Assembly (NCBI GenBank): GCA_947624195.1
Contig: CANQJH010000004.1
Coordinates: forward strand, 1-64,000
DNA length: 64,000 nucleotides
Origin: an uncultured Clostridia bacterium
GTDB taxonomy: Bacteria; Bacillota; Clostridia; TANB77; CAG-508
Direction: 5' to 3'
Below the pieces are notes generated by a model. It was not told where the DNA came from. It did no database searches and worked only from the letters and a program-made list of their open reading frames with translations. The translations under genes were made by a program, and so were the position numbers. Below, piece after piece: positions 61,022-64,000 of this stretch (position 1 is the stretch's first letter; every line of letters starts with the position of its first letter).

Positions 61022-61717
61022 TTAATCAACTTTTGTGCCTATATTTTCCTCATTTGCAGCCCTAATTATATTTTTAGGGTCACTCATTGCAAAAACCACA
61101 AGAGGAATCTCGTTATCTTTGCAAATAGAAATTGCAGCTGAATCCATAACTTTTAAATTCTTTTCCAAAATTTCTTGATATGTTACATAATCTATCTTTT
61201 TAGCAGATGGATCAACTTTTGGATCTGCTGTATATACTCCATCAATTGTTTTAGCTACCAATATTGCATTAGCTCCTATTTCAGCAGCTCTTAACGCTGC
61301 CGCTGAATCTGTTGAAAAGAAAGGACTACCTGTTCCACACGCAAATATTAAAATTCTTCCTTTTTCTAAATGTCTCATTGCTCTTCTTTGAGTAAAAGGT
61401 TCTGCAATTTGTCTCATTTCAATTGCAGTTTGAAGTCTAGTAGCTATGCCTCTTTTTTCTATTGCATCTTGAAGCGCAAGTCCGTTCATAGCTGTCGCTA
61501 ACATCCCCATATAATCTGCGGTTGTCCTCACCATGTTAGGTCCATATTTTCCTCTCCAGAAATTACCACCTCCAACTACAATGGCAATTTCAACACCCAT
61601 ATCATATAATTCTTTTATTGCATCACATATTCCATTTATTGTATCTTCATCTATGCCTGTTTTATTATCTCCCGCAAGCGCTTCACCGCTTAACTTTAAC
61701 AATACTCTTTTATACAA
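61022..61717 (-). CDS. pyrH: UMP kinase
   Basis: [58 protein letters not shown]. Confidence 0.97.
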
Positions 61718-61895: not shown

Positions 61896-62273
61896 TTACA
61901 TATCATATTTCTTTGACTTTACATAAGCAATTGATCCAATTACAACTGCTACTATTCCTACTACTGTAATCATATATATATCATTTTCTCCAGTTTGTGG
62001 TAAGTCCTTCTCTGTACCTATATCATTTATTTTAACAATATTTGACTGAACATTTCCTAGTGTATTGCCAGTGGTATTTCCTCCATTTACTCCAGGAGTT
62101 ACAGTTCCTGTTACATTTCCGCCAACATCATTTCCTAAAGTATTTCCACTAGATGGCGATGGAGTTGGTGCTAGATTTAATCCAGTTGCATTAACTACTC
62201 CAGCTAAAACAAATAAACTTACTAAAACTACAACTAAAGTTACTACTACATTTTTACTTAAATTTTTCATCAT
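61896..62273 (-). CDS. small LPXTG-type cell-wall-anchored protein
   Basis: Signal peptide, Gly/Thr/Asn/Pro-rich spacer, LPQTGEND, TM, KSKKYDM tail. Confidence 0.75.
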   Translation of the reverse strand: MMKNLSKNVVVTLVVVLVSLFVLAGVVNATGLNLAPTPSPSSGNTLGNDVGGNVTGTVTPGVNGGNTTGNTLGNVQSNIVKINDIGTEKDLPQTGENDIYMITVVGIVAVVIGSIAYVKSKKYDM

Positions 62274-62527: not shown

Positions 62528-63616
62528 TTAAACATTAAACTTAAATTCCACAATGTCGCCTTCTTGCATAACATAATCTTTTCCTTCCAGTCTAACTAGT
62601 CCAAGCTCTTTTACCTTTTGATAATTTCCGTTTTCTATTAAATCATTATATGATACTATTTCAGCTTTTATGAAACCTCTTTCAAAATCCGAATGTATTT
62701 TCCCTGCAGCCTGTGGCGCTTTAGTACCTTTCTTTATTGTCCAAGCTCTAACTTCTTTCTTACCTGCTGTCAAAAACGACATTAGTCCTAACAATTCATA
62801 ACTTGCTTTTATTACCTTATCTAGCCCAGATTCTTTTAGCCCAAGAGCTTCAAGCATTTCTTTTTTGTCGTTCCCATCTAAAGCTGACAATTCTTCCTCA
62901 ATTTTCACACATAATGTTATAACATCAGCATTTTCAGATTTTGCATATTCTTTAACCTTCTTTACATAATCATTGTCTTCTTTTCCAATATCATCTTCGG
63001 AAATATTAGCAACATACAAAATTGGCTTCATTGTCAAAAGAAAAGCATCTTTTATAATTTCTTTTTCATCATCAGTCAAATCAATAGTTCTAGCCGGTTT
63101 ACCTTCTTGCAATACATCCCTTACTTTTTTAAATGCATCTTCTTCTAATAAATATTTTTTATCTCCCTTTGCAAGTTTAGCAGCCCTTTCTATTCTTTTA
63201 TTAACTGTATCTAGGTCTGCCAAAACAAGTTCTAAATTAATTGTTTCTATATCCCTAATCGGGTCAACATTTCCGTCAACATGAACTATGTTTGAATCAT
63301 CAAAGCATCTTACAACTTCTAGTATTGAATCAGTTTCTCTAATATGTGATAAAAACTTATTTCCTAGACCTTCTCCCTTACTTGCACCTTTTACTAATCC
63401 AGCAATATCAACAAATTCAATTATAGCATGTGTTACCTTATCAGACTCATACATTTTAGCAAGCACGTCTAATCTTTCATCTGGAACTGGTACAACTCCA
63501 ACATTTGGCTCGATTGTGCAAAATGGATAATTAGCACACTCCGCACCAGCATTTGTAATGCTGTTAAATAATGTACTCTTACCCACGTTTGGCAAACCAA
63601 CTATTCCAATTTTCAT
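62528..63616 (-). CDS. ychF: redox-regulated ATPase YchF (OLA1 family)
   Basis: MKIGIVGLPNVGKSTLFNSITNAGAECANYPFCTIEPNVGVVPVPD; start placed at internal ATG. Confidence 0.96.
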   Translation of the reverse strand: MKIGIVGLPNVGKSTLFNSITNAGAECANYPFCTIEPNVGVVPVPDERLDVLAKMYESDKVTHAIIEFVDIAGLVKGASKGEGLGNKFLSHIRETDSILEVVRCFDDSNIVHVDGNVDPIRDIETINLELVLADLDTVNKRIERAAKLAKGDKKYLLEEDAFKKVRDVLQEGKPARTIDLTDDEKEIIKDAFLLTMKPILYVANISEDDIGKEDNDYVKKVKEYAKSENADVITLCVKIEEELSALDGNDKKEMLEALGLKESGLDKVIKASYELLGLMSFLTAGKKEVRAWTIKKGTKAPQAAGKIHSDFERGFIKAEIVSYNDLIENGNYQKVKELGLVRLEGKDYVMQEGDIVEFKFNV

Positions 63617-63742
63617 ATTAAATTTCATTCCTTTCTTGCTTCTATTCAAGGACACATATAATTATGAAAATTTAAATGTTTTCAAATTATTTTTTCCTAC
63701 TAGCTAAATTATTATACTACAAAATATTACAATTTACAACAT

Positions 63743-64000
63743 TTACTTCACGATATCATACACGGTCTTTGTGTCATCTGACTTTGCTGTATTTTTTTGC
63801 AATTTGACTCCAGATTGCAGACAAACTACTGGACGCAACCCGTTTCCGTAAGTGCCGCGATAGGTGCCGCCGCTCACGATGCCGTAATAGCCCACGCCCA
63901 ACACGTAGTTAGTGTCACCGGCAGAAGGCGACGCCAACCAATATCCATAGCAATTGCCTTTTACACCATTTGCAGTTACACTTAATTCGGTTTGTGGGAA
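63743..64000 (-). CDS. C-terminal fragment of a surface protein with C-type-lectin/FGE-like end (possible DGR target), 5'-truncated by the window edge
   Basis: Frame open to the edge: FPQTELSVTANGVKGNCYGYWLASPSAGDTNYVLGVGYYGIVSGGTYRGTYGNGLRPVVCLQSGVKLQKNTAKSDDTKTVYDIVK*; abrupt GC rise at ~63830-63935. Confidence 0.6.
   Translation of the reverse strand, partial: FPQTELSVTANGVKGNCYGYWLASPSAGDTNYVLGVGYYGIVSGGTYRGTYGNGLRPVVCLQSGVKLQKNTAKSDDTKTVYDIVK

Follow-up and report, generated by a model that had tools for sequence, protein, structure and literature searches.

Genomic Setting of the Target Gene

The window, that is, the whole stretch of 64000 nucleotides analyzed here, covers positions 1-64000 of contig C4 (end at 73818) in an assembly of 1.43 Mb and 42 contigs, with a completeness of 82.9% and a reported contamination of 0.87%. 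Homolog search led to uncultured Clostridia as the closest named records, chiefly 'Lapin' (rabbit) MAGs, from whose origin we infer the rabbit gut as the habitat of the bacterium. The gene under study lies at the right edge of the window, where the first-pass annotation had read a candidate DGR variable region (VR) from a translated string that is indeed present, on the minus strand. The full frame (C4:63743-64990, minus strand) has about 415 codons and is open throughout. According to the reading of translations, its neighbors are ychF on one side and an rRNA-methyltransferase-like gene on the other. C4 is a 74-kb contig of housekeeping genes, and its frames up to 70000 resemble ordinary genes. 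At 61896-62273, the minus strand also encodes a small protein that looks secreted and has an LPQTG sorting-signal-like C-terminus. The features of the locus are the following:

62528-63655, minus strand: flanking ychF-type GTPase gene (open frame, YchF-like by reading of the translation); chromosomal context, outside the DGR
63743-64000, minus strand: 3' portion (85 codons) of the target gene, whose translated open frame runs on to 64990 and has a prepilin-like leader and a DUF6273-related C-terminal domain
63806-63946, minus strand: stretch matching the reconstructed template, conserved anchors included (141-base match, paralog alignment; 5' anchor GGATATTGGTTGGC.., 3' IMH-like anchor GGGTTGCGTCCAGTAGTTTGTCTG)
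63836-63919, minus strand: variable block, a run of 28 VR codons varying at codon positions 1 and 2 (codon-position test, composition and adenine-restricted differences from the template repeat of sister genome G023, contig C15)

Composition and 3' End of the Variable Block

The variable block has a GC content of 0.595 vs. 0.370 in the remainder of the gene. Within 58-64 kb, the 200-base window with the highest value is 63800-63999 (0.51), followed by one at 61400 (0.415), in agreement with the sharp local GC rise reported by the first-pass annotation. The richness in NNC/NNT codons that it described was also recovered: NNC codons account for 16/28 of the block vs. 37/373 of the rest of the gene (p 9e-9) and NNY codons for 21/28 vs. 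137/373 (p 9e-5), these p-values being descriptive because the block boundaries were chosen after the homologs had been inspected. Paralog alignment showed that the conserved IMH-like 3' end is present in the window VR. A GC-rich stem-loop (GCTGGGCC...GTCCAGC) follows the stop codon in the target genes of C16, C19, C9 and G023:C15, and is absent after the window gene on C4. In BPP-1, the IMH marks the 3' end of the VR, as does a stem-loop, which is helpful though not strictly required (PMC12875486). With the conserved 3' end but no such stem-loop, the window gene may be a poor substrate, or one that served in the past.

Paralog Family in the Same Genome

Searching the genome with the segment led to six further genes of the target type, and the reconstructed template added the copy on C9 and a divergent one on C34. 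In total, nine dispersed genes with a YWLASPS...RPVV-type end were found, including the window gene on C4. Those on C9 and C16 sit at contig ends, while the C28 paralog has a frameshift inside its VR. The paralogs on C9 (L024, near 174), C24 (L015, near 6795) and C40 (L017, near 2025) share a common frame break after the prepilin leader; their frames begin at HYGENGLF, and an extra C in TTACGGAGAAAATGG was read in the C9 copy. They may be duplicated pseudogenes or carriers of a common frameshift.

Comparison of the C4 and C18 genes showed differences at codon positions 1, 2 and 3 in 13, 12 and 3 of 29 codons of the block, vs. 97, 81 and 151 of 312 upstream (block vs. upstream, p 1.4e-4). Third positions thus differ by 10% in the block and by 48% upstream. 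The same pattern was seen in five other paralogs, with values of 0.47, 0.40 and 0.08 for positions 1, 2 and 3 in the VR and 0.18, 0.17 and 0.26 upstream. Such an inverted codon-position pattern is expected of blocks copied from one common template whose AAC/AAT codons are misread at their adenines, and by implication the rewriting of the blocks came later than the divergence of the genes.

Template Repeats and Cassettes in Sister Species

For template reconstruction, the variable codons were reset to AAC/AAT and the resulting sequence was searched against 31 genomes of the genus. In G021, a template repeat (TR) was located that matches the reconstruction at 90%; some 480 bases separate it from a VR, an Avd-like frame lies in this interval and a reverse transcriptase (RT) faces the TR. 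Similar cassettes were found in G009, G030 and G023, and TR-VR pairs also occur at loci L123, L126 and L128. TRs were also found in other genera of the family, several of them adjoining an RT. Mismatches between TR and VR fall at 23/44 adenines vs. 2/90 non-adenines in G009, at 20/35 vs. 1/79 in G030 and at 17/37 vs. 2/77 in L126. Two observations were made beside these cassettes. Upstream of the DGR RT of sister genome G030 there is a 6S RNA (RF00013, 91.9 bits; L064:3596-3778, minus strand), and at two loci of sister genomes (L081:1426-2766 and L083:1387-2802) a TR-like sequence, CWSSSQNNTNNAYNANFNNG..., stands in frame upstream of the RT within a single long open frame.

The cassette of the window subtype is that of G023:C15, which consists of a target, a MutS_I protein, an Avd, a truncated TR and a truncated RT; its target protein is 67% identical to the window protein, and its TR breaks off after about 57 bases. 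Over 59 alignable bases, the window VR differs from this truncated sister-species TR at 10/16 adenines vs. 2/43 non-adenines (p 6.6e-6), a test that leans on that TR because the window's own assembly holds no cognate one. One of the two non-adenine differences is at the truncation point, and the other may reflect species divergence. Against the full G021 TR the contrast is weaker (27/40 adenines vs. 22/89 non-adenines).

DGR Machinery in the Same Genome

DGR-type RTs are present in the same genome: two stand beside TRs (C5 and C6), a third is on C1, and the one belonging to the family of the window target persists on C16 as a broken remnant. The C5 DGR is complete, with a MutS-like protein (MutS_I), an Avd above the NCBIfam cut-off, an RT and a TR, together with three VRs on its own contig plus a remote VR on C19. 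The C6 DGR is complete as well, with an RT, a TR and one VR, and the TR-VR pairs of both systems obey the same adenine rule. As sources of the window VR both were rejected: they serve other target families, and their TRs match those other VRs (for C5 the three beside it and the one on C19, for C6 its single VR) and not that of the window. Concerning RNA features, Rfam RT-14 (RF02921) matches 3' of the C6 TR (L019:9377-9235, minus strand, 89 bits) and 3' of the C5 TR (L020:9425-9270, minus strand, 41 bits, below the gathering score of 48.1). These matches lie immediately or shortly 3' of the TRs, the expected place of the DGR spacer RNA, and RT-14 may be the spacer of DGR template RNAs.

The C1 RT was also rejected as a source, since the VR that goes with it belongs to a different type, weakly Lcl_C-like, and hhalign detected no relation between the two target families. 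No TR for it was found in the loci inspected. At L021:9090-9420 on C1, a DGR-like RT has a VR-bearing target upstream with no TR between them, and all that is left, as judged by eye in comparison with L081, is a short stretch resembling the 3' end of a TR (GCGAGTTTCATTATATTAAG).

Traces of the window target's own family were detected on two contigs. The C16 remnant corresponds to residues 1-132 and 218-287 of the G009 RT, without the intervening stretch that holds the catalytic motifs, and has the G023:C15 RT as its moderately supported partner in the grouping of RTs. On C9, a stretch is 87% identical to the spacer RNA (the sequence 3' of the G021 TR), while the TR is absent. The Avd of this family had no match in the same genome and was seen in sister species only. 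Two reconstructed templates searched against the 83% complete assembly gave full-length matches to VRs only, and thus no cognate TR.

The first-pass annotation had seen neither TR nor RT in the window, as our search confirms, and had placed the rest of the system just beyond 64000, which does not hold: the remaining 9.8 kb of C4, to 73818, contain no TR or RT. It had also taken the lack of a near-repeat or RT within ~20 kb as fatal to its call; none was found over those 9.8 kb, the testable span, and such a rule is too strict, since DGRs also diversify targets at remote sites (PMC4891356).

Predicted Protein

The window protein carries a prepilin-like leader, RGITLIALVITVIIMLILAGVTL, recognized by eye (GITL..LILAGVTL), and the Pfam N_methyl motif was detected in 8/25 homologs at E <= 0.01. 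By leader and motif the protein is type IV pilin-like, its processing and assembly being predicted. Pfam DUF6273 was subthreshold on the window protein and passed the cut-off on its homolog from G023 (67% identity), whose domain was modeled with confidence (pLDDT 94.3, pTM 0.94). Foldseek gave no significant match for the full model in PDB or in the viral set, nor for the domain alone in PDB (E <= 0.001); viral structural matches, several of them to DUF6273 proteins, were below significance. DUF6273 has been judged C-type-lectin-like in one study (PMC10743442), and DUF6273 targets of DGRs occur in gut phages (PMC11792537; PMC10743442). The lectin/FGE-type scaffold proposed by the first-pass annotation has indirect support, from the family match and that study, and no significant PDB match; the case for a lectin-like domain comes mainly from the literature. 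Judging from the translated gene, the product would be a pilin-anchored surface protein with a variable tip that binds some ligand, export and binding both being predictions.

Origin and Present State of the Variable Region

The window segment is very probably the VR of a remote (trans) DGR target, located in a putative prepilin-anchored, lectin-like surface protein, and this target has probably been orphaned. The first-pass annotation had already proposed a VR shaped by template-adenine mutagenesis, a proposal now backed by the adenine-restricted differences from the sister TR, the inverted codon-position pattern and the RT, Avd and TR beside homologs. Under the mechanism we propose, a TR-RNA would be copied by an adenine-error-prone RT, next to which Avd and a MutS-like accessory are encoded. 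The resulting mutated cDNA would replace the VR stretch, rewriting the C-terminal variable region of the surface protein. Templates of this family would have written into the nine dispersed genes of the genome, and retrohoming would be the event behind the window VR.

As for its present state, we lean toward an orphaned rather than an active target, because the cognate RT and TR-RNA persist only as fragments in an 83% complete assembly. The main competing explanation opposes only this part of our reading and has an appreciable chance of being correct, somewhat below even: an intact cognate cassette, lying in the part of the genome that is missing (roughly 17%), would still diversify C4, C18 and others in trans. 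The completeness of 82.9% leaves room for such a cassette, the position of the C9 and C16 genes at contig ends is expected if repeats break the assembly, and the C4 frame is open throughout; against it, both cognate traces (the C16 RT and the C9 spacer RNA) are broken, the matching Avd was not found in the genome and the GC-rich stem-loop is missing 3' of the C4 gene. Far less probable is ordinary diversifying selection with gene conversion among paralogous adhesin genes, requiring no retroelement. The genes are indeed paralogs, their variable part probably forms a binding surface and conversion is able to homogenize stretches, but selection acting solely on amino acids does not yield third positions that are nearly fixed next to first and second positions that vary most, and the homologs of relatives adjoin TR, RT and Avd with adenine-restricted differences. 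Least probable of all is that the target belongs to a phage DGR, either as part of a prophage or because a foreign contig was binned with this metagenome-assembled genome. Although DUF6273 targets of DGRs are known from gut prophages (PMC11792537), the gene has ychF and an rRNA-methyltransferase-like gene as neighbors on a housekeeping contig of 74 kb, has homologs both on further contigs and in sister MAGs, and belongs to an assembly with a reported contamination of 0.87%.

Beyond the window target, signs of TR loss were seen on C1, on C9 and in the truncated TR of G023:C15. It is conceivable, though rather unlikely, that the DGRs of this lineage have been repeatedly decommissioned by TR loss, with dispersed, diversified pilin-anchored binding tips kept as a fixed repertoire.

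Comparison with Known Systems

The present case indicates that a VR called at the edge of a contig can be decided on even when no TR is nearby, by rebuilding the template from paralogs and then locating it in relatives. It also offers a natural setting in which to study the fate of hypervariable adhesins after mutator loss. By its own account, a large survey of DGRs in metagenomes used an approach that misses remote targets (PMC8144416), and dispersed pilin-anchored targets of gut Clostridia are therefore an under-counted kind.

Remote and leftover targets have been documented in T. denticola, strains of which keep targets after the loss of RT and TR (PMC4891356). Like those DGRs, the system described here has dispersed chromosomal targets, VR-TR differences mostly at adenines and targets that, here probably, outlive RT and TR. 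In contrast to the HRDC accessory of T. denticola, window-type systems have Avd and a MutS-like (MSL) accessory, MSL (PF01624) being a listed DGR accessory (PMC10053308). The scaffold differs too, being DUF6273-related with a prepilin leader, and the losing genome still holds RT and RNA fragments. Concerning phages, the VR lies in a DUF6273 domain as in Faecalibacterium prophage targets and gut-phage tentaclins (PMC11792537; PMC10743442), and at the C-terminus of that domain in Faecalibacterium phages and the window gene alike. Unlike those phage proteins, the window gene is chromosomal, has a prepilin-like N-terminus and exists in many dispersed copies. With the Bordetella phage BPP-1 the system shares the design of adenine-directed mutagenic retrohoming with RT, Avd, TR, spacer RNA and IMH (PMC12875486), and a 3' stem-loop is present in several relatives. 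BPP-1, however, is a phage system studied with its cassette, whereas the window target has no nearby cassette or clear GC-rich stem-loop, and relatives of the window system carry the MSL accessory. Remote and leftover DGR targets are thus already known; this one is less usual in having a pilin leader, nine dispersed copies and a cognate system whose decay can be seen.
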